DNA of 33,039 nucleotides from a virus. Of the stretch, positions 21-33,039 are shown one piece after another (position 1 is the first letter of the stretch; each line of letters begins with the position of its first letter). A program made the translations under genes and the position numbers. The notes beneath the pieces are model-generated. The model was not told the DNA's origin. It worked only from the letters and a program-made list of their open reading frames with translations, and searched no databases. The stretch is from positions 1 to 33,039 of the IMG/VR virus record IMGVR_UViG_3300044961_000591, one strand, 5' to 3'.

Positions 21-131
21 CATGGGAGAGACCGTCGCCATTGTCGCCGCCGTCGCCTCCGCGCTGGCGACTGCCGCCGCCGCCGGAACGCAGATGATGC
101 AGGCGCAGCAGCAGGCCGCGGCGCTGCGCAA
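1..131. repeat. Terminal direct repeat (left copy), circle closure
   Basis: Bases 6-131 are identical to 32914-33039. Bases 1-5 match the corresponding right-hand bases except base 5. The repeat spans the end of one coding gene and the start of the next, which is what an opened circular or circularly permuted molecule gives. The unique genome length is then about 32,908 bases. Confidence 0.93.
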
Positions 132-555
132 CCAGGCCGCGATGGACGAGGTCCGCGCCCGCCAGCAGGGCCTCGAGGCGCGCGGCGCCTCGGCGCGCGG
201 CGAGGCCGAGGCGCTGGATGTGCGGGAGAACCTGCTGCGCACCCTCGCCGCGCAGAACGCCCGGTATTCGGCGAGCGGCATCGTCCTCGGCGAGGGCACG
301 GCCGAAACCGTGGCCGAGGAGACCGAGGCGGACGCCAACCGGCAGCTGGAGATCATCCGCACCAACACCACCCTGGCCGCCGAAGGCGCCCGCATGGGCG
401 CGGCTCAGACCCAGCAGCGCGCCCTGCTGCTGCGCGACCAGGCGGGCTTCACCATGACGGCCGGCATGATCGGCGCCGGCGCGACCCTGGCCGAGGGCAC
501 GTCGCGCACCGCCGCGCGATGGCCCGGCGCCACCACCCAGCCGCGGACCCCCTGA
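22..555 (+). CDS. Internal virion protein, T7 gp14-like
   Basis: A 177-residue protein beginning with a hydrophobic alanine-rich helix (about residues 4-22), followed by a long Ala/Gln/Arg/Glu-rich helical body and a second small apolar Gly/Ala segment near residues 140-160. This build, and the position directly after the tail tubular genes and before a transglycosylase-bearing giant protein, match the gp14-type small core protein of T7-like phages. That protein is ejected first and helps form the channel through the outer membrane. The ATG lies one base after the stop of tail tubular B, with CGGAG upstream as ribosome site. Its stop TGA overlaps the next start as TGATG. The function comes from position and composition, not from a diagnostic motif. 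Confidence 0.72.
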   Translation: MGETVAIVAAVASALATAAAAGTQMMQAQQQAAALRNQAAMDEVRARQQGLEARGASARGEAEALDVRENLLRTLAAQNARYSASGIVLGEGTAETVAEETEADANRQLEIIRTNTTLAAEGARMGAAQTQQRALLLRDQAGFTMTAGMIGAGATLAEGTSRTAARWPGATTQPRTP

Positions 556-3500
556 TGAGCCTGCCGCCCCTTCGCCGCCAGCAGGCCGGCATCCCGCTCA
601 TGGAAGGGCGGGCCCTGCCGGTGCCGCCGCGCGCCGGCGGCGGCATGGACCTGCCCGCCGGCGGCGGCGCCGCCGCCACGCTCGGCGCGCGGCTTCAGCG
701 CCTGGCCGACAGCATGGGCGGCATCGCCGACCGCGAGGCCGCCGAGGCGGCTTGGGCCGCCGGCACCCAGGCCGGGGAAGCGGCGCCCGGCACCATGATG
801 GAAGGCGGCGGCACCATCTACCGCACCGCCTTCAACCGCGCCGCCGTGGACGCCTCGGCGCGCCGGCTGGAAATCTCGGCGCGCGAGCACCTGAACGGGC
901 TATTGGAACGGCACGGCACCGAGCCCGACGTCTTCAACGTGGCGGCGCAGCAGTGGCGGGAACAGACGCAGCAGGGCCTGCCGCCGATCGTGCGCACGGC
1001 CTTCGTGCAGCGCTTCGACGCCATGGCGCTGCCCTACGCCAACCAGGTGCGGGAGAACCTGCGCCGGCGCGTCGCCGACGATGCCATGTCCACCTACAAC
1101 GCGGCGCTGCCCGGCCGCGTGGCGGACATCGAGCGCGCCGCCGGCCAGGCGGTGTCCGACCCGGCCGCCGCCGCGGCGCTGCGCCTGACCGAGACGCAGG
1201 CGATCGCCGAGGCGGTCGCGCTCGGCCCGCGGGAGGCCTTCAGCGCCGGCGGCCGGCAATACCCGGCGGATCCGTCCCGCGCCGGGGCGCTGACGGCGGC
1301 GCAGGTGACGGAACAGGTGCAGCGCGTCGAGCGCGCGCGCACCGAGGCCGCGGTGCGCGCCGCCTGGCGGGCGGCCGGCGGCGGCCTGCAATGGATCGTG
1401 GATTTCGAGCGCAACCAGCAGGCGGCGCCGGGCTTCAGCCCCTTCGCCCAGCGCCAGGCGGCGCAGGGCCGTGCGCTCGGTACCGTGGACGCCTTCGCCG
1501 CCCGCGTGCCCGAGCCCTGGCGTCCGGTCGCGGAACAGGCGGCGCGCGAGAACGGCCTGCCGCCGGTGCTGCTGCTGGCGCTGCTCGGCCTCGAGAGCGG
1601 CGGCAGGGCCGGCGCGACCAGCCGGGCCGGCGCGGTCGGGCCGGCGCAGATCATGCCGGCCTCCGCTGCCGATCCCGGCTTCGGGATGGCGCCGCTGCCG
1701 CGCGACGCCCTGACCGACCCGGCGCGCGCCATCCCATGGGCGGCGCAATACCTCGCGCGGCTGCGCGACCATTTCGGCGGGGACATCGGCAAGGCGCTGG
1801 CCGCCTACAACGCCGGGCACGCGCGCGTGACGGCGGCCGAGCGCGCCGGCGCCGCGCTGCCCGAGGAAACCCGCAACTACATCGCCACCCTCATGCCCGC
1901 CGCCGGCGGCGCCGGCGCCATGCTGCCCGCGGCCGAAGTGGCGCGCATCGCCGCCCGGCTGCGCGCCGACCATGCCGCCGAGACGCAGGCCGCCACGGCC
2001 GGCCAGGCGCAGGCGCGCGCCGAGCTCGAGCGCCAGATCGCCGAGAACCTGGCGGCCATCGGCGTCAATGGCAGGCCGGTGCACAGCCTGACCGAGGCGC
2101 AGATCGCCGCCGCCGGGCTCGACCCGGCGCGCGTTCTGGAGCGCGAGCGCATGCGGGCCGAGGTCTTCGCCGCCGACCAGACCGCGCGCAGCGTCACCGC
2201 CCCGGCGGACCTGCAGCGCCTGGCCGAGGACTTCGCGCCCGGCACCGCCAACTTCCGCGCCGACCCGGCCGCGGCGGTGCAGCTGCTGAACCACCTGCGC
2301 CAGCGCGGCGTGCTGGTGGCCGGCGCGGACCTGGCCGAGCGGCTGCGCGACCTGCAGGTGCAAGCGCAGACGACCGGCCAGCGCCTGGCGATCACGCCCG
2401 AGGAAGGCGCCGCCGCCGGCCTGCCGCCCGAGCGGGTGGCGGAGATCAACCGCGACCTCGCGCTGGCGGGCGATACCGGCGCCATCCGGCGCGAGGCCGC
2501 GGGCCTGCCGGATGCCGAGCGCGAGGCCTTCCTCGCGCGCTTCCCGCTGACCGGGCAGGATGCGCACCGCAACGCCCAGCGGGTGCGCGCCACGGCGGAA
2601 GCCTTCGCCGAGCGCGACCGCGCCGTTGCGGAGGATGCCGCGGCCTATGCGCTCGCCGGCAGCCCCGTCCTGCGCGACCTCGGCGGCCGCGTCGCCGGCG
2701 GCGACTGGGCCGCGCTCGCGCCCTTCCTGCGCCAAATGCGGGCTGAACAGGAACTGCTCGGCATCCCGCACGCGCAGCGGCGGGACCTGCCCAAGCCCTT
2801 CGTGGAGGCGCTCTACCAGCGCATCGCCAACAGCGCCGACGCGGATGCCGCCTGGGGCGCGCTGTCCGCCCTGACCGAGGCGGCGGGCCTGCCGGCGGTG
2901 CAGCGCATCATCCGCGAATGGCGCCCCGAAGGGGACCGGCAGGACGACCGGCGCCGCGCCATCGCCGTGGCGGCGGCGCTGCGCGGCCAGGACGACGAGA
3001 CCGCGCGGCTGGTGCTGCGCGGCGCCTTCGTGCTGCGCGACAACCCGCTGGTGGACGCCTCCCGCCGCAACGTGCAGGAGGCCGTGGACAGCCACCTTGG
3101 CGCCGCGCTGGAACTGCGGCCGGATGCGCGCGCCGACATCACCGCCGCCGCCGTCGCCGCCGCGGCCGCCACGGCCATGCGCGAAGGCCGCATGGCGCAG
3201 ACCTTCAGCCGGTCCTCCTTCGGCGACCTGCTCGAGCGCATCGCCCCCGTCGCCACCTTCGCCGGCCAGCGCACCCTTCTGCCCCCGGGCATGACCGAGC
3301 GCGCCTTCCTCGACGTGCTGGCGGACCTGCCGGCCGAGCGGCTGGACGGCGCCGCCGCGACCGATGGCCGGGCGATCACGCCGGCCATGCTGGCGCGCGG
3401 GGACATCGCGCTGCGCGCCGTCGGACTCGGCCGCTACGCGCTGTTGGTGAACGGGCGGGACGTGCCGGACGCCCGTGCGCCCGGCCGGCGCTTTATCCTG

Positions 3501-3617
3501 GACCTCAACGGCGCCGAGCCGGTCACGCCGCCGGCGCCGCGCGGGCCCGAACCCCCGCAATACCAGCGCGGCCGCCTCGGCCCGGCGCTGCGCGACCAGC
3601 AGGGCAGCACGCCATGA
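555..3617 (+). CDS. Giant ejection protein with lytic transglycosylase domain
   Basis: With the TGATG-coupled start at 555 the product is 1020 residues; an ATG at 519 would add 12 residues and overlap the upstream gene by 37 bases. Residues about 325-445 form a goose-type soluble lytic transglycosylase (SLT) domain: catalytic Glu347 in LESGG, then GAVGPAQIMPAS and AAYNAGHARV. This enzyme cleaves peptidoglycan glycan strands. In podovirus virions such a domain is carried on an injected core protein (T7 gp16 has one) and opens a local hole in the wall for DNA entry. The rest is Ala/Arg/Glu-rich and mostly helical. The C terminus has a small beta-type segment (GRYALLVNG, GRRFILDLNG) often seen at the end of phage ejection proteins. 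It overlaps the next gene by ATGA. Confidence 0.88.
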   Translation: MSLPPLRRQQAGIPLMEGRALPVPPRAGGGMDLPAGGGAAATLGARLQRLADSMGGIADREAAEAAWAAGTQAGEAAPGTMMEGGGTIYRTAFNRAAVDASARRLEISAREHLNGLLERHGTEPDVFNVAAQQWREQTQQGLPPIVRTAFVQRFDAMALPYANQVRENLRRRVADDAMSTYNAALPGRVADIERAAGQAVSDPAAAAALRLTETQAIAEAVALGPREAFSAGGRQYPADPSRAGALTAAQVTEQVQRVERARTEAAVRAAWRAAGGGLQWIVDFERNQQAAPGFSPFAQRQAAQGRALGTVDAFAARVPEPWRPVAEQAARENGLPPVLLLALLGLESGGRAGATSRAGAVGPAQIMPASAADPGFGMAPLPRDALTDPARAIPWAAQYLARLRDHFGGDIGKALAAYNAGHARVTAAERAGAALPEETRNYIATLMPAAGGAGAMLPAAEVARIAARLRADHAAETQAATAGQAQARAELERQIAENLAAIGVNGRPVHSLTEAQIAAAGLDPARVLERERMRAEVFAADQTARSVTAPADLQRLAEDFAPGTANFRADPAAAVQLLNHLRQRGVLVAGADLAERLRDLQVQAQTTGQRLAITPEEGAAAGLPPERVAEINRDLALAGDTGAIRREAAGLPDAEREAFLARFPLTGQDAHRNAQRVRATAEAFAERDRAVAEDAAAYALAGSPVLRDLGGRVAGGDWAALAPFLRQMRAEQELLGIPHAQRRDLPKPFVEALYQRIANSADADAAWGALSALTEAAGLPAVQRIIREWRPEGDRQDDRRRAIAVAAALRGQDDETARLVLRGAFVLRDNPLVDASRRNVQEAVDSHLGAALELRPDARADITAAAVAAAAATAMREGRMAQTFSRSSFGDLLERIAPVATFAGQRTLLPPGMTERAFLDVLADLPAERLDGAAATDGRAITPAMLARGDIALRAVGLGRYALLVNGRDVPDARAPGRRFILDLNGAEPVTPPAPRGPEPPQYQRGRLGPALRDQQGSTP

Positions 3618-6580
3618 GCGGCGTGCTGGCCCTTGGCGAGGAAGTCCGGCCGCTCGCCTGGAACCCGCTGCCCACCGTGCCGCGCACGGCCGCCGAGCGG
3701 TTCCGCCTCGGCCTCGAAGCGCAGCTCGCCACCGGCAACTTCGCGTCCGAGGAACGCAACCTCCGCCTGACCTTCGACGATGCCGCCGGCGCGCTGCGCG
3801 AGGCCGGCGCGCCGGTGGAAAACCCCTACGATGCCGGCGAGTTCCAGGGCAGCTTCCTGAACGACGCCATGAGCGCGGCCTCCCTGGCGGTGCTGCCGCC
3901 CGGCGCGGCCGGCGCCCGGGCCCGCATCGCGGAGGCCGAGCGGCGCCGGCGCGAACTGGCCTGGGACCAGGCCGTGAACCGGCTGCGCGAGGAACGCCCC
4001 GAGGATGCCGATCGCTACCTGACCACCCACGAGATCCGCGCCATGGCGCGCCGGCGTGCGCAGAACGCGGCAGCCGAGTCCGCGGCGGCCGAGGATCTCG
4101 GCGGCGGCCTCGGCGGCTTCGCCGGGACGGCGGCGGGCATCTTCGCGGACCCGATCCAGGTCCTCACGCTCCCGCTCGGTGCCGGCCGCGTGGCCGGCAC
4201 GGTGCTGGCGCAGGTGGCCCGCACGGCGGCCATCGAGGGCGTGGTGGCTGGTGCGACGCAGGCCGTGGTGGAAACCCGCGCCGGGCCCTACCGGCAGTCC
4301 CTGGGGCTGCCGGACGACAGCTTGGCGCAGATCGGCGTGGCGGTGCTGGGGGGTGCCGTCATCGGCGGCGGGGTGCGCGCGATCCTGGCAGGCGCCGAGC
4401 GCCTGGCCGCGCGCGCCCCCGCCGGCTCGGCCGCCGAGGTCGCGGCGCAGGACGCCGCCGCGCTGGCGCGGACCGACGCCATGGACGCCGCCGCCAGGCC
4501 CGGCGCGCCGGAGCGGAGCGCCGGGCACGACGCGGCGATGCAGCAGGGGGTGCGCCAGGCCCTGAACGGAGAGGCACCGACGGCCAGCCTGCCGCCGCCG
4601 GTCGCGCCCGCGCCCGTTGCCCAGAGCCTCGCGGCCCTGCCCGAGGCGGAACTGCGCGCGCATGTGCGCGCGGCGGTGGAGGACGTCATCGCGAGCCAAG
4701 GCGCGCGCATCGACGGCGCCTGGCGGTCCGACCTCGGCGCCATCACCGTCGAGTGGGGCCAGCCCGGCAACCCGAACCGGCAGTTTCGCGGCGGCAGCGG
4801 CCTTGCGCACATCATCGCGCACAGGAACGCGCAGGGGCTCGACGGCGAAGCCTGGGTGCGGGACGTGCTGCCAGACGTGCTCATGTCGGGCACCACGGCC
4901 AATCTTCGGGGGCCGCCCGACGGCATGCGCGTGGATCTGTTGTGGCAGGGCCATCGCGTCGTGTTGGCGCTGCGCCGCGACGGCACGCGCGAGAACTGGG
5001 TCCTGAGCGGCTTTCCGCCGGAACGCGGCCCCGGTGGAACGGCGGGAGGCAATCCGCAACCGCCCTACGCTCCCGGGCCGTCTGTGCTCCAACCGCGGGA
5101 GGGAGCGGGACCGCGCACGTCGGATATGCCACCCGGCGCCCGCCGCTTCAACGCCTATACGCCGACGGGCCGCGGCGTGCTGGTCGAACCGCGCGTCGTC
5201 AGCCTGCGCAGCCTCGTGTCGAGCCACGGCCCGGACGGACAACCGAACCCCGCCTATCCGCATGCCGAGGGGCTGCAGCCGCGCGACCGCTCCGCCGCCC
5301 CCAGCCAGGACCAGGTGCGGGCCATCGCCTCGGGCCTCATCCCCGAGCGGCTGCTGCCCAACACCGAGGCCGGATCGGGCGCGCCCATCGTGCATGGCGT
5401 GGACGGCGTGGTCGAAAGCGGCAACGGGCGCGTCGCCGCGCTCGCGCTGATCCATCGCGACCCGGCGCTCGCGCATGTGCGGGACGCCTACCTGGATGCC
5501 CTCCGCCGCGCCGGCTTCGGCACCGACGGCATCGAGGAGCCGGTGCTGGTCTCCGCCCGCGTCAGCCAGCTCAGCCCCGCCGAGCGCAACGCCTTCGTGC
5601 GGGAGGCCAATCTGCGCGGCACGGCGGCCGAAACGCTGACCGAGGCAGCGGCACGCGATGCCGACGCGGCGCGCGGCCTGCTGCATCTGTGGCGCGGCGG
5701 CGCGGTGGACGCCGCGGCCAATGCCGACTTCCTGCGCAGCTTCCTGGCGCGGCTGACGGCCGAGGAACGCACCGGTCTGCTCGACCGCGCCGGCCGCCCG
5801 CTGCCGGCCCTGCGCGAACGCATCGAGCACGGCCTGCTGATGGCGGCCTATGGCGACGCGCTGGGGCCGCTCGCCGCGCGGATGATCGCCGGCGAGACCG
5901 AGGGCCTGCGCGGCCTCGCCGCCAGCCTGCGCACCCTGGCCGGCGACTGGGCCGCCATGCGCGCGGACATCCAGGCCGGCCGGGTGCCGGCCGAATACGA
6001 GGCGACGCCGGCGCTGGCCGAGGCCGTCTCCGCCATCGCCGAGGCGCAGGCCCGGCGCCTGTCGCTCGAGGAGCTGGTCCTGCAGGTGGACATCGAACGC
6101 CCGGCCATGACGCCGGCCGGGCTGGCGATGCTGCGGGCGATGTTCCCCGACGGCGACCTCGGCCGCCGCATCAAGCCGCAACCGCGCCTGACCGAAATGC
6201 TGCGCGGCTATGTCGGCCGCGCCCGCGCCGCCGAGGCCGGGCCGATGCTGCTGGACCTGCCGCCGGTCCGCACGGATGAGGCGATCGCCTTCGCCGCCCG
6301 CGCCGACGACGCCGGCGCGCCGCCCGCGGCGCGCGAGGCCGCCGCCGACCCCCAGGCCGCGCGCCTGCTGGCCGCCGATGCCGAGGCCCGGCGCCTGGCG
6401 GCGGACCCCGCCACCCGCTCGGCCGAGATCCTTGAGGCGCAGCGCATCGCCGCCGAAGCGGACATCCGCGTGCCCGAGGAGGCCGGTGAGGCCAGCGCCC
6501 GCGACCTGCTCGACGCCGCCGAGGCCGAGGCCGCCGAGGCCGCCGCCGCCGCTGCCTGCCTGATCGGGGGCGCGGCATGA
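3614..6580 (+). CDS. Polyvalent ejection protein: RNase-like plus DdrB/ParB-like domains
   Basis: The reading frame is open from further upstream, but the ATG at 3614 in an ATGA overlap with the transglycosylase gene is the evident start, giving 988 residues. Residues about 160-265 contain glycine-rich hydrophobic stretches (GGGLGGFAGTAAGIF, VAVLGGAVIGGGVRAIL) that could contact membrane. Residues about 380-465 resemble the phage Barnase-EndoU-ColicinE5/D-RelE-like nuclease families (PBECR), with a GLAHIIAHR motif (His399) and a closing WVLSGF strand. Residues about 505-730 look like the DdrB-type ParB-like domain, with SGNGRVAAL (Asn604-Arg606) as its signature loop. Such domains occur in polyvalent proteins that phages deliver with their DNA to act in the new host. 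The C-terminal quarter is Ala/Glu-rich. Domain names are from motif memory and not searched. Confidence 0.72.
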   Translation: MSGVLALGEEVRPLAWNPLPTVPRTAAERFRLGLEAQLATGNFASEERNLRLTFDDAAGALREAGAPVENPYDAGEFQGSFLNDAMSAASLAVLPPGAAGARARIAEAERRRRELAWDQAVNRLREERPEDADRYLTTHEIRAMARRRAQNAAAESAAAEDLGGGLGGFAGTAAGIFADPIQVLTLPLGAGRVAGTVLAQVARTAAIEGVVAGATQAVVETRAGPYRQSLGLPDDSLAQIGVAVLGGAVIGGGVRAILAGAERLAARAPAGSAAEVAAQDAAALARTDAMDAAARPGAPERSAGHDAAMQQGVRQALNGEAPTASLPPPVAPAPVAQSLAALPEAELRAHVRAAVEDVIASQGARIDGAWRSDLGAITVEWGQPGNPNRQFRGGSGLAHIIAHRNAQGLDGEAWVRDVLPDVLMSGTTANLRGPPDGMRVDLLWQGHRVVLALRRDGTRENWVLSGFPPERGPGGTAGGNPQPPYAPGPSVLQPREGAGPRTSDMPPGARRFNAYTPTGRGVLVEPRVVSLRSLVSSHGPDGQPNPAYPHAEGLQPRDRSAAPSQDQVRAIASGLIPERLLPNTEAGSGAPIVHGVDGVVESGNGRVAALALIHRDPALAHVRDAYLDALRRAGFGTDGIEEPVLVSARVSQLSPAERNAFVREANLRGTAAETLTEAAARDADAARGLLHLWRGGAVDAAANADFLRSFLARLTAEERTGLLDRAGRPLPALRERIEHGLLMAAYGDALGPLAARMIAGETEGLRGLAASLRTLAGDWAAMRADIQAGRVPAEYEATPALAEAVSAIAEAQARRLSLEELVLQVDIERPAMTPAGLAMLRAMFPDGDLGRRIKPQPRLTEMLRGYVGRARAAEAGPMLLDLPPVRTDEAIAFAARADDAGAPPAAREAAADPQAARLLAADAEARRLAADPATRSAEILEAQRIAAEADIRVPEEAGEASARDLLDAAEAEAAEAAAAAACLIGGAA

Positions 6581-9042
6581 CCACCCGCCACGCCAAATGC
6601 GTCGCCGATGCGGTGGCCGCCGGGCGCATCAGCGCCGCCACGGCCGGCAAGGTCAATGCGCGGGTCGAGGAACTGCTCGGCAAGGGGCTGAGCGAGGCGG
6701 AGGCGATGCGCAAGGCGGCCGAGGACTTCGCCGCCGCCGCCGCCGAGAAGCAGCGCCAGACCGCCAAGCGGATCCTCGCCGCCGCCCGCAACGTCGAACT
6801 GGCCGCGGCGCACCCGTCCGGCTTCCGCGACGGCGTGCTGTCGCTGCTCGCCCGGGACCTCACCGGCAAGGCCACCTGGTCCAACGTGGAGGCCCGCGCG
6901 CGTGCGATCCGTGGCCTTGCCCATGCCGGGCTCGCCGACTTCCTGGACCGCTTCCGCTCCAAGGCGCTCGGCCTGATGCGCGACGAGGATGGGCTCGCCG
7001 GCTTCGTCCGCGCCGCCTATGGCGAGGCGCCGAAGGACCCGGCGCTGCGCGGCCTGGCCGCCGACTGGCAGCGCGTGACCGACAGCCTGGTGGACCGCTT
7101 CATCGCCGCCGGCGGCAGCCCGTCCACCAAGCGCGCCGACTGGCGCCTGCCCCAGGCCTTCGACCGGGACAAGGTGGTGGCCGAGGGGCGCGAGGCCTTC
7201 ATCCGCTTCATGGAGGACGAACACGCCGCCGGCCGGCTGTCCGTGCGCGACCCCGACACCGGCCTCGAGGTCAATGCCCTGCGCCGGGCGGAGATCGTCA
7301 GCCAGGCCTTCGAGCGCATCCGCACCGAAGGGCTGGTGGACATCACGCCGGGCGCGGCGCGCGGCCTCGGCGCGCTGGCGAACCAGCGCAGCGCCATGCG
7401 CGCCTTCCAGTGGACCAGCGCGGAGGCATGGCTCGGCTTCAACGACCGCTTCGGCGTCGGCAATCGCAACCTCTACGACCTGCTGAACGGCCACATCGAC
7501 GGCATGGCCCGCGACATCGCGATGCTGGAAGTGCTGGGGCCGAACCCGGAATGGATGGTCCGCTACCTGCGCGACGAAGCGGTGAAGCGCCTGGCGGACA
7601 GCCCGAACAGGGCGCGCGTGGCGGCGTGGCGGATCGACAGCACCTGGGCGCATGTCTCCGGCACGGCCAACACCCCGGTCAATGAATGGGTCGCGACCGC
7701 CTTCCGGGAAGTCCGGGCCTTCCTCTCGGCCACCCGCCTCGGCTCGGCCACCATCTCCTCCGTCAGCGACTTCGCCACCATGCGCCAGGTGGCGGCCTGG
7801 AACGGTCTGCCCGCGGTCGGGTGGATGGACGACTACCTGCGCCTGCTGAACCCCGCGAATGCCGACGACCGCCGCATCGCCGTACGCTCCGGCCTGCTGG
7901 CCGAGGCCTGGGCGCAGCGGGCGGCGGGCGGCATGCGCCACCAGGCGGATGTGGTGGGCACCGGCCTCGGGTCGCGCATGGCGGACTTCGTGCTGCGCGC
8001 CTCCGGCCTCACGGCGCATACGCAGGCCGCGCGGTGGGCGATCGGCATGGAGGCGCTCGGCGTCCTGGCCGACCAGGCCGGCAAGGCGTTCGACGCGCTG
8101 GATCCCATGTTGCGCCAGGGCATGGCGCGCTACGGCATCCGCGCGGCGGAATGGGACCTGCTGCGCGCATCCGGCGTCATCGACGAAGGCGGGATGCGCC
8201 TGCTGTCCCCGGAGGCGGTGGCGCGCGCCGCCACCACCGACCCAGCCGCCGCGCGCGCCAACCTGGACGCGGCGACGCGCCTGCTCGAATTCGTGCAGAC
8301 CGAGGCGCGCCTCGCGGTGCCCGAGCCCGGTGCCGCCGAGCGCGCGCTGATGATCGGCCAGACCCGGCCCGGCACCTTCCATGGCGAGCTTGTCCGGTCC
8401 GCCATGCAGTTCAAGTCCTTCCCGGTGACGGTGATGCTGATGCATATCGGCCGCGGCCTCGCGCAGGAAAGCCCGGCCGGCAAGGCCGCCTACCTGGCGT
8501 CCTTCGCCATCGGCACCACGCTGATGGGCGCGTTGGCGATGCAGCTGAAGGCGGTGGCGCAAGGCAAGGACCCGCGGGCGATGGACAACCACCGCTTCTG
8601 GTTGGCCGCCTTCGCGCAGGGCGGCGGCGCCGGCATCCTCGGCGACTTCCTGTCCACCTCGATCAATCGCGCCGATCAGTCCTTCATCGCGCAGACGCTG
8701 GGCGGCCCGACCGGCGGGCTGGTCGATGACATCGCCCGCATCGCCGGGCTGAACATCCAGGCGCTGGACGACGAGCGGAAGGAGCGCGCGACCGGCGCCG
8801 ATCTGGCGCGCTTCGTGCGCAACAACACCCCCGGGACCACGCTCTGGTATGCCCGGCTCGCCGCCGACCGGCTGCTGTGGGACCGGCTGCAATGGTGGGC
8901 CGACCCGAAGGCAGGGCAGCGCTTCCGCGCCGCGGAACGGCGCGCCATGCGCGACTACCAACAGGAATTCTGGTGGGCACCAGGCGAGGCCTCGGCCCGC
9001 CGCGTGCCCGCCCTTTCGGCTGCCGGAGGACGTGACCGATGA
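6577..9042 (+). CDS. Large internal virion (ejection) protein
   Basis: An 821-residue protein starting at an ATGA overlap. The N terminus (residues 1-70) is a charged coiled helix with an AEKQRQTAKR segment. The middle is rich in Trp, Arg and Asp with conserved-looking blocks (SVRDPDTGLEVNAL, QWTSAEAWLGFNDRF). Near residues 640-670 there is an apolar helix (AAYLASFAIGTTLMGALAM) that could insert in membrane. No enzyme motif is recognised. Its size, its place as last of four co-translated genes between the tail tube and tail fibre genes, and its likeness to the large uncharacterised internal proteins of T7-like phages support a role as an ejected core protein. Its stop overlaps the tail fibre start by ATGA. 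Confidence 0.7.
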   Translation: MTTRHAKCVADAVAAGRISAATAGKVNARVEELLGKGLSEAEAMRKAAEDFAAAAAEKQRQTAKRILAAARNVELAAAHPSGFRDGVLSLLARDLTGKATWSNVEARARAIRGLAHAGLADFLDRFRSKALGLMRDEDGLAGFVRAAYGEAPKDPALRGLAADWQRVTDSLVDRFIAAGGSPSTKRADWRLPQAFDRDKVVAEGREAFIRFMEDEHAAGRLSVRDPDTGLEVNALRRAEIVSQAFERIRTEGLVDITPGAARGLGALANQRSAMRAFQWTSAEAWLGFNDRFGVGNRNLYDLLNGHIDGMARDIAMLEVLGPNPEWMVRYLRDEAVKRLADSPNRARVAAWRIDSTWAHVSGTANTPVNEWVATAFREVRAFLSATRLGSATISSVSDFATMRQVAAWNGLPAVGWMDDYLRLLNPANADDRRIAVRSGLLAEAWAQRAAGGMRHQADVVGTGLGSRMADFVLRASGLTAHTQAARWAIGMEALGVLADQAGKAFDALDPMLRQGMARYGIRAAEWDLLRASGVIDEGGMRLLSPEAVARAATTDPAAARANLDAATRLLEFVQTEARLAVPEPGAAERALMIGQTRPGTFHGELVRSAMQFKSFPVTVMLMHIGRGLAQESPAGKAAYLASFAIGTTLMGALAMQLKAVAQGKDPRAMDNHRFWLAAFAQGGGAGILGDFLSTSINRADQSFIAQTLGGPTGGLVDDIARIAGLNIQALDDERKERATGADLARFVRNNTPGTTLWYARLAADRLLWDRLQWWADPKAGQRFRAAERRAMRDYQQEFWWAPGEASARRVPALSAAGGRDR

Positions 9043-10085
9043 CGCTGAGCATCATCCCGCAGGATACCCGCAGCCGGCGTTTCCTGTGCGTCGGCGGCGA
9101 AACCGTGTTCTCCATCACCTTCCCGTTCTTCGCCGCGGCGGACATCGCGGTGCGGCGGCAGCGCGCGGGGGCGACCTCCCTGCTGGTCGAAGGCGTGGAC
9201 TATACCGTCGCCGGCGCCGGCAACCCGGCGGGCGGCAGCGTGACCTTGCTGGCGGCGGCGCTGGCCGGCGACCTGATCGTGGTGGTATCCGAGCAGCCGG
9301 AAGGGCGGACCAGCGGATGGACGGACGGCCAGGCGCTGACGGCCACGGCGCTGAATGCCGAGTTCGCGCGGAAGTGGATCGCGCTGCAGCAGCTGCGTCG
9401 GGACATCAATCGCGGCCTGCGCCTGCCGATCGTGGATCCCGAAGGTGGGCTGGAACTGCCGGATGCCGGGGCGCGCGCAAGCAAGTTCATGGCGTTCAAC
9501 GGCTCGGGCGAAGTCATCGCAGCCGAGGGCTCGATCGGCGGGGTGCCGGTCAGCCCGTTCATCGCGACCCTGCTCGACGATGCTGACGCCGCCGAGGCGA
9601 GGGACACGCTCGGCGCTACCCCGATCGGCGCGGCGTTGTTCACCGCGGCCGACGCCGCGGCGGTGCGGACGCAGGCCGGGGCGACGGCAACCGGCTCCGC
9701 CCTGATCACCGCGGCCGATGCCGCGGCGGTGCGGACGCAGGCCGGGGCGACGGCAACCGGCTCCGCCCTGATCACCGCGGCCGATGCCGCGGCGGTGCGG
9801 ACGCAGGCCGGAGCGACGACCACCGGCTCGGCCCTGATCACGGCGGAGGACGCCCAGGCGGCGCGCACGGCGATCGTCGCACCGCCGACGCCCACCAATT
9901 CGGCTGGCGTAGGGCAGTGGGTTGTCATCGGCAACACGCTGCCGGCGGGCGGAACGTGGGCGTGGTTCTCTATCGGTTTTTCGGGCGGCGGTCCCGTGAC
10001 GCACGCGGCGGGCGTCTCGGCGGGCGGCTCGACCGTAGTGAGCGGCGCAACCGTCTACACCGGCTTCGCTTGGAGGATCGCATAA
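9039..10085 (+). CDS. Tail fibre protein, T7-type N-terminal anchor
   Basis: A 348-residue fibre with GGAGGACGTGACCG upstream as ribosome site and an ATGA overlap. Residues 1-130 have the look of the T7 tail-fibre N-terminal domain that docks on the tail: a beta-rich head (SRRFLCVGGETVFSITFPFF), a GVDYTV segment, and a GWTDGQALTATALNAEF block leading into a helix (LQQLRRDINRGLRLP). Residues about 190-270 are three and a partial fourth copies of a 22-residue repeat with ADAAAVRTQAGAT and TGSALIT, a motif common in trimeric fibre shafts. The last 60 residues (GNTLPAGGTWAWFSIGF and onward) are a Gly/Ser/Thr-rich beta tip and probably bind the host receptor. The fibre is short for this class. Confidence 0.85.
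   Translation: MTLSIIPQDTRSRRFLCVGGETVFSITFPFFAAADIAVRRQRAGATSLLVEGVDYTVAGAGNPAGGSVTLLAAALAGDLIVVVSEQPEGRTSGWTDGQALTATALNAEFARKWIALQQLRRDINRGLRLPIVDPEGGLELPDAGARASKFMAFNGSGEVIAAEGSIGGVPVSPFIATLLDDADAAEARDTLGATPIGAALFTAADAAAVRTQAGATATGSALITAADAAAVRTQAGATATGSALITAADAAAVRTQAGATTTGSALITAEDAQAARTAIVAPPTPTNSAGVGQWVVIGNTLPAGGTWAWFSIGFSGGGPVTHAAGVSAGGSTVVSGATVYTGFAWRIA
9642..9839 (+). repeat. Three 66-bp in-frame tandem repeats in the tail fibre
   Basis: Units begin at 9642, 9708 and 9774, each 66 bases (22 codons). The first two differ at very few bases and the third at several more near its end. They lengthen the fibre shaft by whole repeat units. The near identity at DNA level points to recent duplication or to copy-number change by slippage. 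Confidence 0.9.
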
Positions 10086-13893: not shown

Positions 13894-14247
13894 TTAGGCG
13901 GCTTCCTCGTCGAGGGCTGCGGCCAGTTCGGATCGCTGAGATGGTAACCGCGCGAGTTCCGCCATGATGCGCTCGCGGACCTCCCATCGGAGTGATCGAT
14001 CATCACCGAAAAAAACGAAATCTGCCGTCACGTCCAAGACCGGCAAAACGAGCGCAAGTTGATCGATGCTTGGGCGCTTTATCGCGGTTTCCCAATTCGA
14101 AATGGTGTTCTTATTTACTCCGGACTTCGCCGCGAGTTCTGTGTTGCGGAGCCCTTGGGCGCGCCGCGCTGCAATTAGACGGCGCGCGATACCCTCAACA
14201 TTAGCAGCGGTGCGCGCGAGGGCCTGGCCGGCACGGATCTGATCCAT
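13894..14247 (-). CDS. Short CI-type repressor (XRE HTH, 117 aa)
   Basis: The ATG at 14247 starts MDQIRAGQALARTAANVEGI; the frame extends further upstream but would cross the divergent promoter region. Residues about 20-75 are a clear XRE/Cro-CI helix-turn-helix (RRLIAARRAQGLRNTELAAK, SGVNKNTISNWETAIKRPSI), followed by a short helical tail. There is no S24/LexA-type autopeptidase domain, so SOS self-cleavage is unlikely. It diverges from a Cro-like gene in the standard immunity layout. Its DNA is less GC-rich than the neighbours, with A/T-ending codons, pointing to separate acquisition of the immunity module. Confidence 0.85.
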   Translation of the reverse strand: MDQIRAGQALARTAANVEGIARRLIAARRAQGLRNTELAAKSGVNKNTISNWETAIKRPSIDQLALVLPVLDVTADFVFFGDDRSLRWEVRERIMAELARLPSQRSELAAALDEEAA

Positions 14248-14337
14248 GTGGATGACGATAGCGGTCGCGAGCAGTGATCTCCGCACACCAAAAAGCACCT
14301 TGACATGATCACTGACGGTCAACAACCCTGCGCGCCC
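14248..14337. promoter_or_regulatory. Repressor/Cro divergent control region
   Basis: CAGTGATC occurs at 14272-14279 and inverted (GATCACTG) at 14307-14314; the same 8-mer is at 13869-13876 beyond the repressor gene. TTGAC (14300-14304) pairs with GTCAA (14318-14322) around the second site, and TTGACA at 14300-14305 looks like a -35 box. These are the expected parts of a lysis/lysogeny operator, with half-sites 28-35 bases apart. No convincing -10 hexamer is visible. Confidence 0.55.
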
Positions 14338-14646
14338 ATGGAGTCCCGCGTCGCCGCAGTCGTGTTCGATCTGGTTCGCGCCCTGGGTGGCCCCGCGCAT
14401 GTCGCGCGGGTGTGCGGGGTCAGCGCAACCGCGATCAGCAACTGGCAGGTCGCCAACGCGGTCCCGCCGCGGCACTGGCTGACGATCTGGCGCCTGGCCA
14501 AGGCGCGTGGCCTGGACTGGCGCCCGCCCGGGGCGGAGGACCTGGACATCGTGCCGCGTGCCGACATGGGGGGCGATCCTGTCGCGGCGCCCAGGTTCGC
14601 GCAATGTTCTCGTCATGCGGCGCAGCAGACGGAGGAAGCGGCGTGA
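14305..14646 (+). CDS. Cro/YdaS-like HTH regulator
   Basis: 113 residues from the ATG at 14305, or 102 from 14338 (MESRVAAVVFDLV); the later start avoids the operator-like DNA and is perhaps better, but neither has a clear ribosome site. Residues about 20-70 are a YdaS/Cro-type helix-turn-helix: LVRALGGPAHVARVCGVSAT, then AISNWQVANAVPPRHWLTIW. It is transcribed away from the repressor gene, so it would be the lytic-side regulator. The C-terminal tail is loosely structured and ends in an overlap (GTGA) with the next frame. Confidence 0.8.
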   Translation: MITDGQQPCAPMESRVAAVVFDLVRALGGPAHVARVCGVSATAISNWQVANAVPPRHWLTIWRLAKARGLDWRPPGAEDLDIVPRADMGGDPVAAPRFAQCSRHAAQQTEEAA

Positions 14647-14888
14647 CCGCGCGCGATCCCGCCGAACTGCTCGCATCGCTGGACCTTCGCGGGGCCGCCG
14701 CCTGGGCGGCCGAGCGTCTCATGCCGGCGGCGGAGGCTCCCGATCCGCCAGCGCCACCTGCAGCAGGGCATCGAGCTCGCGCTCGATCCGATCGCGCTGC
14801 ACATCGGTCAGCGAAGTCCGCGCCGTCGGCATCGCATCGAGCGCGTCCAGCGCCGCGCGGCGCAGCGCCGGAAGAAGAGCCGTCCTGA
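14643..14888 (+). CDS. Possible small gene, 3' part overwritten
   Basis: A GTG at 14643 overlaps the stop of the Cro-like gene as GTGA. The first 27 codons (VTARDPAELLASLDLRGAAA, WAAERLM) have the codon use of a real helical protein. From there the frame reads like the opposite strand of the 94-aa minus gene, with Ala/Arg/Pro/Ser runs. It is either a truncated gene whose 3' end was replaced, or a real 81-aa gene in a long antisense overlap. I favour truncation. Confidence 0.35.
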   Translation: MTARDPAELLASLDLRGAAAWAAERLMPAAEAPDPPAPPAAGHRARARSDRAAHRSAKSAPSASHRARPAPRGAAPEEEPS

Positions 14889-16795: not shown

Positions 16796-17073
16796 CAGCG
16801 CGCAGTCTGACGGTTTGGCGCAAGCCCTGGCGCGGCAAGGCGCGCCGCGCGGCTCGGCAACTGATCGCCGATCAGTCGCCGCAGCCTGGCCAGCGCAGCC
16901 TGGCGCTGGCGGCGGCGGCGCCGAGCTCGGCCGCCAGCCCCCCCGGGGGGTGCCCGGCCGCCCCCCCGGAGCCGCGCCTCGCGCGCTCCGCCGCCCCTTC
17001 CAGCTCGATCGAACAGGCCGGGCGCCACGCGATGGGTGTCCCCGGCGCAGCCGCTATTGGGGATGGGGAATGA
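16786..17073 (+). CDS. Hypothetical protein with C7/G6 runs (95 aa)
   Basis: It starts 10 bases before the upstream stop. The N-terminal 45 residues (MSLTARSLTVWRKPWRGKAR, AARQLIADQ) look genuine and basic; the rest is Ala/Pro/Ser-rich. The gene contains C7-G6 at 16938-16950 and C7 at 16961-16967. The primase frame is open throughout, so a minus-one slip at either run would join this protein to the primase; a sequencing slip is equally possible. Its stop overlaps the primase start as ATGA. Confidence 0.5.
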   Translation: MSLTARSLTVWRKPWRGKARRAARQLIADQSPQPGQRSLALAAAAPSSAASPPGGCPAAPPEPRLARSAAPSSSIEQAGRHAMGVPGAAAIGDGE

Positions 17074-18140
17074 CCGCCCGCGGCGGCTACCTGCATTCGG
17101 TGCAGGACATCGCCCGCATGCTCGACCAGCATGCCGAGGCAATCGCGCGCGAATGCTTCCCGGCCGGCCGCAGGGCGGGGGCCGAGTGGCGCATCGGCAG
17201 CCTGGCGGGCGAGCCCGGCCAGTCGCTGTCGATCCGGATCGCCGGCGACAAGCGTGGCGTGTGGGCGGACTTCGCCGCCGGCATCAGCGGCGACATGCTG
17301 GAGCTGGTCGCGCGCCATCGCTACGGCGGCGACAAGACCGAGGCGCTGCGCTGGGCGCGGAACTACCTCGGCCTGTCCACGGTGGCCGCGCCGGCCGGCC
17401 AGGCGCCGCCGGCGCCGCCAGCGCGCGTGCCGGCCAGCGAGGTCAGCCGGTCGTTCAGCGGCAAGGCGCGCGCGCTGTGGCTCGGCGGGCATCCGCTCGG
17501 CGGCACGCCGGCGGCGTCCTATCTCGCGGCACGGGGCGTCGGGCTGACCGCGCTCGGCCGCGCGCCGGCGGCGCTGCGCTTCCGGGGCGACGTGTGGTGT
17601 TCCGAGCGCCAGCAGGCGGCGCCGGCCATGCTGGCCGCGATCACGCGCGGCGGCGCCATCATCGGCTGCCACAGGACCTTCCTGGCCGCCGGGCCTGCCG
17701 GGCGATGGGGCAAGGCGCCGATCGCCGCGCCGAAGAAGGTTCTCGGCCAGGTCGGCGGCGGCTTCATCCCGCTGTGGCGCGGCAAGTCCGGCAAGCCGCT
17801 GCGGGAAGCGCCCGAAGACGACACGCTGGCGATCACCGAGGGGATCGAGGACGCGCTGACGATCGCGCTGCACATGCCCGAATGGCGAGTGATCGCGGCC
17901 TATTCGCTCGGCAACATCGCCAACCTGCAGCTGCCGGACCGCTTCGCCGACATCGTGCTGTGCTGGGACCGGGATGGCGACAAGGCGGAACCGTCGCGGG
18001 CGCGCGAGGCCGCGGCCGAGCGCCTGCTGCGGCAGGGCCGCAGCCTGCGCGAAATCCGTCCGCCGGAGGGATTCAAGGACTTCAACGCCTGGCACCTGGC
18101 GGAAATGGCGGACGGCGCAGCGCCGCGGAGGCTGGCATGA
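17070..18140 (+). CDS. Toprim-domain DNA primase
   Basis: 356 residues from the ATG at 17070 in an ATGA overlap. Residues about 1-110 form an N-terminal domain (SVQDIARMLDQHAEAIAREC, VWADFAAGISGDMLELVA) of the type seen in phage primase/helicase proteins without a clear four-cysteine zinc ribbon. Residues about 250-345 are a Toprim domain: Glu257 in LAITEGIEDALTIAL, then Asp300 and Asp302 in CWDRDGD, the metal-binding catalytic triad. The closing IRPPEGFKDFNAWHL is typical of these proteins. It would make primers for phage DNA synthesis together with the ATPase two genes downstream. Confidence 0.85.
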   Translation: MTARGGYLHSVQDIARMLDQHAEAIARECFPAGRRAGAEWRIGSLAGEPGQSLSIRIAGDKRGVWADFAAGISGDMLELVARHRYGGDKTEALRWARNYLGLSTVAAPAGQAPPAPPARVPASEVSRSFSGKARALWLGGHPLGGTPAASYLAARGVGLTALGRAPAALRFRGDVWCSERQQAAPAMLAAITRGGAIIGCHRTFLAAGPAGRWGKAPIAAPKKVLGQVGGGFIPLWRGKSGKPLREAPEDDTLAITEGIEDALTIALHMPEWRVIAAYSLGNIANLQLPDRFADIVLCWDRDGDKAEPSRAREAAAERLLRQGRSLREIRPPEGFKDFNAWHLAEMADGAAPRRLA

Positions 18141-18622
18141 AGCGCATCGGTCGGCCGCCGGGCAGGATGTCGGCTGAGGCGCGCGCGGCCATGATCGCGC
18201 GGCGAAATGCCACGCTGGACGCCCATCCGGAGGTCCGCGCCCGGATGTCGGAGGCTCGCAAGCGCGCGTTGGCCGATCCGGAGGTCCGCGCCCGGATGTC
18301 GGAGGCTCGCAAGCGCGCGTGGGCCGATCCGGAGGTCCGCGCCCGGATGTCGGAGGCGAGCAAGCGCGCGTTGGCCGATCCGGAGGTCCGCGCCCGGATG
18401 TCGGAGGCTCGCAAGCGCGCGTGGGCCGATCCGGAGGTCCGCGCCCGGATGTCGGAGGCGAGCAAGCGCGCGTGGGCCAAGCGGCGTGATTTCGAGGTGC
18501 CCGGGTGGGTCGTGGCGGCCGGGCTCGACGACGATTTCCGTGACATCGCACAGCAGGACGGCGAGGAGGCGGCCGCCGCCTTCTGCCGCGCGCTGAAGCG
18601 CCAGATGGCGGCGGCTGTATGA
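18137..18622 (+). CDS. Basic tandem-repeat protein (161 aa)
   Basis: It starts MKRIGRPPGRMSAEARAAMI and then carries five copies of a 17-residue unit PEVRARMSEARKRAxAD (A/S, L/W variants), residues about 30-114. The unit is a strongly basic helix resembling the short NUMOD-like or SEARKRA modules found beside homing-endonuclease and phage DNA-binding proteins. The C-terminal 45 residues (FEVPGWVVAAGLDDDFRDIA, then DGEEAAAAFCRALKRQ) form a distinct helical domain. It is coupled by ATGA to the primase before and the ATPase after, so a DNA-binding role in replication is likely but not shown. Confidence 0.65.
   Translation: MKRIGRPPGRMSAEARAAMIARRNATLDAHPEVRARMSEARKRALADPEVRARMSEARKRAWADPEVRARMSEASKRALADPEVRARMSEARKRAWADPEVRARMSEASKRAWAKRRDFEVPGWVVAAGLDDDFRDIAQQDGEEAAAAFCRALKRQMAAAV
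18225..18479 (+). repeat. Five 51-bp tandem repeats
   Basis: Units start at 18225, 18276, 18327, 18378 and 18429, each 51 bases (17 codons). They differ mainly at GGCTCG versus GGCGAG and at the TTG versus TGG codon. The alternation of the two variants hints at duplication of a two-unit block. Copy number is probably variable. Confidence 0.95.
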
Positions 18623-31204: not shown

Positions 31205-32928
31205 GGACGCTGCGCGCGGTGCAGACCTCCTTCACCGCCGGGGAGCTCGACCCGCGGCTCGATGCGCGCATCGAGGTCAGCCGCTACTATTCCGGCGCCG
31301 CCCGCATGCGCAACGCGACCGTGCTGCCGCAGGGCGGCTTCCAGCGGCGCGCCGGGCTGCGCCACATCGTCACCCTGCCGGCGGGCGCGACGGCGGGGCT
31401 GCGCCTGGTGCCCTTCGCCTTCTCGGTCGCGCAGACCTTCCTGGTCGTGCTCTATGATGGCGCCTTCCGGGTCTATCGCGGCAGCGACGGCAGCCATGTC
31501 TTCACCGGCAGCTGGCCCGGCACCGCCGCGATCGCGGCGCAGGTCAACTGGGCGCAGTCGGCCGACACCCTGATCCTGTTCCACCACGACCTGCCGCCGC
31601 ACCGCATCCGCCGCGAAGGCTCCGACACGTCCTGGTCCTCCGCCGCGCTGACGCTGACGAACATCCCGACGCACGATTTCGGCTCCGGCGCCGAGGCGAT
31701 GATCAGCGTCACGCGCGGCTGGCCGGAATGCGGCACCTTCCATCAGGGCCGGCTGTGGATGGGCGGGCTGAAAAGCCGCCCGGCCACGCTGCTGGCCTCC
31801 CGCGCCGGATCGTTCTTCGACTTCCAGACCGGCACGCTGGACGACCACGCCATCGCGCTGACCATCGACAGCGATCAGCTGAACCAGGTGCATCAGCTGA
31901 TGCCGCATCGGGGGTTGCTGATCTTCACCTCGGGGGCCGAATACGCCATCACGGTCGCGCCGCCGATCACGCCGACCAACGTGGCGGTCGAGGAACAATC
32001 CCGGCGCGGGATCAAGCGCTTCGCGCGGCTGGACGAAGTGGACAGCGCGATCCTGTTCGTGCAGCGCGGCGGTGCCGCCGTGCGGCAGTTCGTCTATTCC
32101 GAGCTCGAGCAATCCTGGCAGGCGGACCTGCTGTCCCTGCTGGCGCCGCACCTGATCGCCGACCCGCGCGACGTGGTGATCCGAAAGTCGGCCGCGCAGG
32201 ACGATGCCGACCTCGTGCTGCTGCCCGACGCCGGCGGCATTACCGCGCTGAGCACGCTGCGCGCGCAGGAAGTGGCGGCCTTCGCCCGCTGGCAGATCGA
32301 CGGCCAGGTGCTGGCGGCGGCGGCGCTGGCCAATGGCCAAGCCTTCGTCGCCGTGCTGCGCGACGGCGCGGCGCGGCTGCTGCTGATGGACCGCGCCTGC
32401 CTGCTGGATCACGGGCTGGTCTTCTCCTTCGGCTCGCCGGTGGATGTGCTGTCCGGCCTCGGCCACCTGGCCGGGCGGGAGGCGGTGATGGTGCTGGACG
32501 GCCGGCCGGAGGGCAGCGCGACCATCCCCGGCGACGGCGTGCTGGCCCTGCCGCGTGCATGCCTGACGGCGGAGATCGGCCTGGGCTTCGAGGTCGTCGC
32601 CCGCACCATGCCGATCGAGCCGCGCGACCCGGCCGGCGCCATGATCGGGCGCAAGGGCCGCTTCGTGCGGGTGGCCGTGCGCGTGCACGAAAGCGGGCCG
32701 TTCGAGATGCGCAACGCCGTGCTGGCGGGGCGCGTGCTCGGCGGCCCGCCGGCGCCGCCGCTCGACACCGTGCCGCCGCCGCCGCCCGTGCCGATCACCG
32801 CGGAATACGTGGTGGACGGCCTGCTCGGCTGGCACCCGAAGCAGAGCATCGAGATCCGCCAGCCCCCGGAACGGCCGGCGCCGCTCACCGTCACGGCGCT
32901 GGCCATGACCATCGCCATCGGAGCCTGA
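31201..32928 (+). CDS. Tail tubular protein B (gp12-like nozzle)
   Basis: 575 residues from the ATG at 31201 in an ATGA overlap; the open frame continues upstream but overlaps gp11-like coding. The N terminus MRTLRAVQTSFTAGELDPRL, then AARMRNATVLPQGGFQRRAG is the hallmark of podovirus tail nozzle or stabilisation proteins. The middle has the beta-propeller style of those proteins (FHQGRLWMGGLKSRPATLLA, VEEQSRRGIKRFARLDEVDS, VQRGGAAVRQFVYSELEQSW). It forms the tail tube end through which DNA and ejection proteins leave. Its last codons are also at bases 1-20. Confidence 0.88.
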   Translation: MRTLRAVQTSFTAGELDPRLDARIEVSRYYSGAARMRNATVLPQGGFQRRAGLRHIVTLPAGATAGLRLVPFAFSVAQTFLVVLYDGAFRVYRGSDGSHVFTGSWPGTAAIAAQVNWAQSADTLILFHHDLPPHRIRREGSDTSWSSAALTLTNIPTHDFGSGAEAMISVTRGWPECGTFHQGRLWMGGLKSRPATLLASRAGSFFDFQTGTLDDHAIALTIDSDQLNQVHQLMPHRGLLIFTSGAEYAITVAPPITPTNVAVEEQSRRGIKRFARLDEVDSAILFVQRGGAAVRQFVYSELEQSWQADLLSLLAPHLIADPRDVVIRKSAAQDDADLVLLPDAGGITALSTLRAQEVAAFARWQIDGQVLAAAALANGQAFVAVLRDGAARLLLMDRACLLDHGLVFSFGSPVDVLSGLGHLAGREAVMVLDGRPEGSATIPGDGVLALPRACLTAEIGLGFEVVARTMPIEPRDPAGAMIGRKGRFVRVAVRVHESGPFEMRNAVLAGRVLGGPPAPPLDTVPPPPPVPITAEYVVDGLLGWHPKQSIEIRQPPERPAPLTVTALAMTIAIGA

Positions 32929-33039
32929 CATGGGAGAGACCGTCGCCATTGTCGCCGCCGTCGCCTCCGCGCTGGCGACTGCCGCCGCCGCCGGAACGCA
33001 GATGATGCAGGCGCAGCAGCAGGCCGCGGCGCTGCGCAA
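32909..33039. repeat. Terminal direct repeat (right copy)
   Basis: Matches bases 1-131 at an offset of 32908, exactly from 32914 on. It holds the end of tail tubular protein B and the first 110 bases of the gp14-like gene. Confidence 0.93.
32930..33039 (+). CDS. 5' end of the gp14-like gene (partial copy)
   Basis: The first 36 codons (MGETVAIVAAVASALATAAA and onward) are identical to the start of the complete gene at 22-555. The fragment exists only because the window repeats its own start. Confidence 0.92.
   Translation, partial: MGETVAIVAAVASALATAAAAGTQMMQAQQQAAALR

Follow-up and report, generated by a model that had tools for sequence, protein, structure and literature searches.

This analysis concerns a 988-amino-acid protein encoded by an open reading frame at 3614–6580 on the plus strand of the IMG/VR virus record IMGVR_UViG_3300044961_000591, the whole stretch of which (33,039 nucleotides) is called the window below. 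Its N-terminal scaffold (residues 1–335) and its DdrB-ParB domain form a conserved ejection protein, and a PBECR1-type domain, a predicted RNase of the BECR fold, is placed in an exchangeable slot between the two. Polyvalent proteins that combine PBECR and DdrB-ParB domains, and their mosaicism, were already described in 2017 (Iyer et al., PMC5512222); new here are the defined slot in an ejection scaffold of the epsilon15 type and the swaps of its content between closely related phages. The original prediction, made from the letters alone, had both domain calls and the ejection-operon context right but missed the exchangeable nature of the RNase insert in a conserved scaffold.

The RNase module covers residues 342–470 (4637–5023, plus strand). 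Pfam PBECR1 (PF18809) matches residues 371–468 with 20.7 bits (E 5.9e-4), or with 26.1 bits when the domain is searched alone, both below the curated cut-off of 27.6 bits. Another contig of the same architecture (L115) carries a homologous insert, 63% identical to that of the window, which scores 29.6 bits and passes the cut-off, and the window domain is filed, from sequence comparison, as PBECR1-like and as a homologue of this passing member. The insert of a further contig (L196) is 60% identical to the window module. The domain match is not a chance one, because the architecture recurs in these independent contigs under purifying selection (ratio of non-synonymous to synonymous substitution rates, dN/dS, 0.27–0.30; about 0.29 in the module). 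Nineteen family members, gathered from the loci described below, all match PBECR1 at E 0.01 or better, and their pattern (W-G, G-[LI]-x-[HK]-I, R, W-x-x-[ST]) is retained in the window as His399, Arg439, Trp462 and Ser465. Position 399 is occupied by histidine in 16 of the 19 members and by lysine in the other three, position 439 by arginine in 17, and position 465 by threonine in 14 and by serine in five. The blocks GLAHIIAHR and WVLSGF, on which the original prediction had relied, lie at residues 396–404 (with His399 as the family histidine) and 462–467, and its limits for the RNase (380–465) were correct within about 10–15 residues. The RNase segment retrieves polyvalent proteins of Helicobacter phages by sequence; no match was found in plasmids. 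Single-sequence scans of viral and genome contigs (P0001, P0003 and the RNase segment) yielded almost nothing, and alignments were needed as queries. A sequence search of the PDB gave no match for the 988-amino-acid protein or for the family profile.

An AlphaFold model of residues 342–480 (mean predicted local distance difference test score, pLDDT, 88.8) consists of a helix, two strands, helices at 396–425 and four strands, and thus has the arrangement by which the BECR fold was recognized, a helix and then a sheet of four or five strands. The best PDB match of the module in Foldseek is 7m5f_C (prob 1.00, E 2.7e-3), the toxin of a contact-dependent inhibition (CDI) system whose authors describe it as having the BECR fold (PMC8616854); the next matches are weak and include HigB1 and YoeB/ParE. 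The active site of PBECR domains was described as a histidine in a helix and a serine or threonine in the last strand (PMC5512222), and the window agrees with this description: the predicted active-site histidine, His399 (codon 4808–4810, plus strand), lies in helix 396–406, and the predicted active-site alcohol, Ser465 (codon 5006–5008, plus strand), in the last strand (WVLSGF). The third conserved residue, Arg439 (codon 4928–4930, plus strand), is a basic residue that starts a core strand. Because the L115 homologue passes the cut-off, the confident model matches 7m5f, and His399, Arg439 and Ser/Thr465 are conserved, the module is, as modelled, a BECR-fold domain of the PBECR1 type and a predicted RNase, which bears out the PBECR-type call made from the letters. 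As a BECR-fold domain of this type it would be a metal-independent endoRNase. Comparing the profiles of PBECR1 and PBECR3 gave no significant match (probability 0.8%, E 0.067), though the histidine-bearing helix lines up.

The DdrB-like ParB domain and a conserved helical extension occupy residues 504–860 (5123–6193, plus strand). Pfam ddrB-ParB (PF18763) matches the core (residues 519–649) with 74 bits against a cut-off of 27.6 bits (E 1.5e-20), and in a search of a small set the domain is 31% identical to DdrB of phage P1 over 280 residues (E 8e-28). Five diverged sequences (the window, P1 DdrB and three other phages) share the blocks LQPRDR, GAPI and ESGNGR without change; in some relatives the first block reads V-QPRDR. 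Arg606 (codon 5429–5431, plus strand), the conserved arginine of the SGNGR loop, is also shared with P1 DdrB and is found in 23 of the 24 rows of an alignment that comprises 22 full-length proteins and two PBECR fragments. On this sequence evidence the domain belongs to the DdrB-ParB family and appears intact. The DdrB/ParB-like call of the original prediction was thus correct, as was its SGNGRVAAL loop, which begins at residue 602, while the limits that it gave (505–730) were too short, the domain running to about residue 784–860 if its all-helical extension is included. The C-terminal helical tail (residues 861–988; 6194–6577, plus strand) has phmmer matches in L020, L115, L130, L128 and L125, and its Cys982 is kept in all 22 full-length rows of the alignment. 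No peptidase match was found in the 988-amino-acid protein with Pfam or PHROGs.

The scaffold in front of the slot (3614–4618, plus strand) was delimited by profile search and hydropathy; it is all-helical in the model and contains two hydrophobic segments (residues 181–199 and 240–258). We retrieved 160 DdrB-ParB loci, 43 of which share the scaffold of the window (44 with the window itself). In 35 of these 44 proteins the scaffold joins the ParB domain directly through 10–49 residues, eight (including the window) have 168–234 residues between the two domains, and the remaining one 73. In the window the slot corresponds to residues 336–508, with boundaries at about residues 328 and 509, and in the full-length model the linkers that flank the module (most of 282–334, and 470–508) are predicted to be disordered. 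The slot holds PBECR1 in the window and L115, PBECR3 in L020 (56.5 bits) and L108 (49.9 bits; both above the cut-off of 30) and, weakly (16.1 bits), in L100, and Phage_lysozyme2 in L095; the inserts of L046 (7275–8012) and L165 (7485–8018) have no significant Pfam match of their own and are candidates for new injected effectors. A second scan, based on the scaffold, added L193 (PBECR3, 40.3 bits), L195 (PBECR3, 25.1 bits, below the cut-off), L196 (PBECR1, 19.8 bits, below the cut-off; E 6e-26 with our own profile) and two proteins without an insert. In more distant proteins at the gp16 position the slot contains an SLT transglycosylase domain (the phages Piluca and TPWB-05 and Acinetobacter phage MD-2021a) or GH108 (L015 and L204). 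A second cargo site follows the ParB domain, occupied by PBECR1 in L144, L163, L148 and L046, by ART-PolyVal in L027 and by LPD23 in L153. In the C-terminal PBECR1 domains of L144, L163 and L148 a lysine replaces the active-site histidine (GLAKI or GLSKI); these domains may be inactive or may use a different chemistry.

The content of the slot has been exchanged between close relatives. At the DNA level the window and the sister phage L100 are about 80% identical over 46–4599 and 83% identical over 5138–5635, and blastn found no similarity between these two stretches, so that the exchanged segment lies at 4600–5137 (plus strand). The identities of scaffold, slot and ParB domain at the protein level are 80, 29 and 83% with L100, 73, 35 and 75% with L193, 67, 60 and 67% with L196, and 38, 63 and 41% with L115, where slot values near 25–35% are at the level of unrelated domains in a global alignment. 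In a tree of scaffold plus ParB domain the window and L100 are sisters (support 98/96), and the slot states (none, PBECR1, PBECR3) require at least six changes, the direction of which is not readable from the tree. Since the flanks of the window and L100 are 80–83% identical while their slots are unrelated, these comparisons show that the RNase was swapped, the sister having a PBECR3-type domain in its slot.

The gene lies in an ejection cassette of the epsilon15 type, all on the plus strand. The cassette begins with a gp14-like internal virion protein of the T7 gp14 family (22–555; PF24072 with 21.9 bits, E 1.9e-4, below the cut-off of 27; the internal virion protein family phrog_418, E 9e-11), followed by a 1032-amino-acid ejection protein at the gp15 position (519–3617; phrog_2013 and phrog_342) with an SLT transglycosylase domain at residues 338–444 (PF01464, E 3.9e-20), the 988-amino-acid protein, and a gp17-like pilot/ejection protein (6577–9042; phrog_684, E 1.5e-164), homologues of which occur in 110 phage records, including epsilon15 (gp17), phiV10, BcepC6B, VP2 and SI2. 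As had been proposed, the protein is therefore placed between two ejection-type proteins, and the wall-opening enzyme is found in the upstream neighbour, the effectors here. The order matches that in phiV10, BcepC6B and Piluca. Among the 43 scaffold relatives the gp17-like gene adjoins in 42, the lone exception being a truncated contig. The scaffold profile found 48 proteins that share the N-terminal scaffold and matches the gp16-position proteins of phages SI2, VP2, K300 and MT835618 (E 1e-15 to 2e-9); phiV10 itself was not found by it. Because of the gene order, the gp17-related neighbour and the naming of epsilon15 gp15, gp16 and gp17 homology by the depositors of the Piluca record, the gene is assigned to the gp16 position of a short-tailed phage of the epsilon15/phiV10/BcepC6B type. 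Its ATG overlaps the stop codon of the upstream gene (ATGA at 3614–3617), and there are 4-base overlaps with both neighbours. A longer reading frame starting at 2918 was rejected, because the alignment with the relatives begins near residue 5 counted from the 3614 start and position 2918 falls far inside the upstream gene.

From the architecture, the fold, the conserved active-site residues, the gene context, the purifying selection and the exchange we infer a route from packaging to catalysis, and we consider it probable that the protein is an injected, RNA-cutting effector of the entry stage, in which a gp16-position ejection protein provides a scaffold, a payload slot, a DdrB-like ParB domain with its extension, and a conserved tail. 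It would be packaged in the head core together with its gp14-, gp15- and gp17-like partners, and upon adsorption all ejection proteins would be released, the SLT domain of the upstream protein opening the wall. The membrane-prone scaffold would then enter or cross the inner membrane and expose the RNase and the ParB domain on the cytoplasmic side. There the RNase would cut host RNA during the first minutes (tRNA, mRNA or an RNA used in defence, for example CRISPR RNA), and ParB would nick DNA or hydrolyse nucleotides. The slot would be exchanged repeatedly by recombination because the target or the counter-measure of the host varies. The place in an operon of ejection proteins argues for entry into the host together with the DNA. 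DdrB of phage P1, which has this ParB domain too, undergoes processing and is packaged into the phage head (PMC5512222). In an epsilon15 study gp15 and gp17/16 are counted as parts of the injection apparatus, with reference to Guichard et al. 2013 (PMC12391199), and a review of ejection proteins stresses that wall-hydrolase domains are swapped among them (PMC8954989).

Several observations weigh against this reading. The match to 7m5f is moderate (template modelling score, TM, 0.40–0.45; 19% sequence identity), and the authors of that structure note no equivalents of the colicin E5 active site in their toxin (PMC8616854). The model of the full-length protein is weak overall (predicted TM score, pTM, 0.39), and its Foldseek search gave chance matches only, none of them significant for the ParB part. 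The slot position alone is no proof of a cytoplasmic effector, because relatives carry wall-degrading domains (SLT, lysozyme) there, which calls for caution with an RNA effector and, by analogy, may mean that slot contents act in the periplasm. We nevertheless regard it as quite improbable that the domain of the window acts in the periplasm or on the wall while the channel forms, as the SLT domains of Piluca, TPWB-05 and MD-2021a, the Phage_lysozyme2 domain of L095 and the GH108 domains of L015 and L204 would suggest, for it has the fold and the active site of an RNase family whose substrate is cytoplasmic, and the same phage already has a wall enzyme in the upstream protein. An RNA target is favoured because one BECR family replaces another in the slot.

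This replacement, often by another BECR family (PBECR3) and not by arbitrary domains, also speaks against a PBECR1 domain that is non-catalytic in the infected cell and serves to bind RNA or DNA or as a packing element, a role suggested for the inactive PBECR domain in the MuF protein of phage Mu (PMC5512222). This explanation gains from the slot being empty in most relatives, so that no specific slot activity is required for infection, and in the literature searched we found no activity data for PBECR1; with His399, Arg439 and Ser/Thr465 retained across a diverged family and a dN/dS of about 0.29 in the module, we judge it unlikely. More doubtful still is a toxin against competitors, with which a prophage-derived particle or a superinfecting phage would hit non-immune cells while an immunity protein shields lysogens. 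Fast exchange of toxin domains on a constant carrier does resemble polymorphic toxins, a parallel is known in the MuF toxins of temperate phages (PMC5576092), and the window encodes a helix-turn-helix repressor-like protein; an adjacent immunity gene, however, has no room, since both flanking genes overlap by 4 bases, and the gp17-like neighbour is present whatever the type of slot. A join of scaffold, RNase and ParB domain created by metagenome assembly was rejected as very unlikely, hardly worth entertaining: the window and L100 are both metagenome contigs, but L115 and L196, which come from other samples, show the same order, one continuous reading frame is kept, and a scaffold-PBECR3-ParB protein is encoded in the isolate genome of Roseomonas acroporae (L020).

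Among known systems, the Helicobacter jhp1044-type polyvalent proteins also combine PBECR and DdrB-ParB domains in one large, mosaic late-gene protein (PMC5512222), but they have several PBECR domains in a repeated chain, whereas the window protein has one RNase in a fixed slot of a gp16 scaffold and its closest relatives differ mainly in that slot. The window protein belongs to the polyvalent proteins by its combination of PBECR1 and DdrB-ParB in one large protein between ejection proteins; no match to a self-processing MPTase domain, which is common in such proteins but neither universal nor a defining requirement, was found in it with Pfam or PHROGs. P1 DdrB, a head protein of the darA operon, shares the DdrB-ParB domain and the helical extension and has in addition a C-terminal metallopeptidase (PMC5512222); no peptidase was detected in the window protein. 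Piluca gp47 and its counterparts in TPWB-05 and MD-2021a (Acinetobacter/Alcaligenes phages) have the same operon position and a similar length, with the DdrB-ParB domain at residues 527–660 and the preceding domain at 363–443; their slot, however, holds a wall transglycosylase instead of an RNase, and their N-terminal part is nearer to phiV10 gp16-like proteins than to the scaffold of the window. Iyer et al. 2017 (PMC5512222) had pointed out that lysozyme and DdrB-ParB are combined in Acinetobacter prophages. Gp16 of epsilon15/phiV10 shares gene position, partner proteins and variable size, but the phiV10 protein matches neither PBECR nor ParB, and a direct comparison with the window protein detects no sequence similarity. 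MuF polymorphic toxins (PMC5576092) are likewise virion-associated carriers of exchangeable toxin domains, an association that for the window protein is deduced from its context; they differ in the carrier, the C-terminal position of the toxin and their immunity proteins, the window protein having neither a MuF match nor an adjacent immunity gene. The CdiA-CT toxin of Serratia marcescens BWH57 (7m5f) has the BECR fold of the module and is delivered by contact-dependent inhibition, with an immunity protein.

The record is classed as linear. Its first and last 131 bases (1–131 and 32909–33039) are identical save for one mismatch, and the contigs L002 and L100 are continuous from the end of the window into its start, for which reasons it most probably represents a complete genome of about 32.9 kb that can be closed into a circle. 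Downstream of the cassette, a tail-fibre-like protein (9039–10085) contains 3.5 near-identical copies of a 66-base (22-residue) unit at 9640–9869 (92% matching), and an open reading frame at 17036–18622, which weakly matches a homing endonuclease family of PHROGs, contains 5.1 copies of a 51-base (17-residue) repeat at 18221–18478 (95% matching). The HTH_3 repressor-like protein (13894–14676, minus strand) hints that the phage is temperate; the open reading frames scanned, a subset of those of the window, included no integrase. The provirus-like locus of Roseomonas acroporae NAR14 (L020), which has the same scaffold and ParB domain with PBECR3, together with the 71–77% G+C of the window, suggests a Roseomonas-like host.

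The targets of PBECR domains and an anti-defence role of injected polyvalent proteins were left open in 2017, and we found no answer in the literature. Tentatively, and with somewhat more doubt than confidence, we propose that gp16-type proteins have a dedicated slot in which entry-stage toxins (PBECR1, PBECR3, lysozymes and unannotated domains) are swapped between sister phages, and a second, C-terminal site (ADP-ribosyltransferase, LPD23, PBECR1), an injected analogue of the tip exchange of polymorphic toxins that would be driven by RNA-based defences of the host, with new effectors in L046 and L165. Sister phages whose main difference is a single RNase domain in a single ejection protein constitute a natural swap experiment, the slot boundaries provide clean domain limits for biochemistry, and reading the interval between scaffold and ParB domain offers a way to find other injected effectors.

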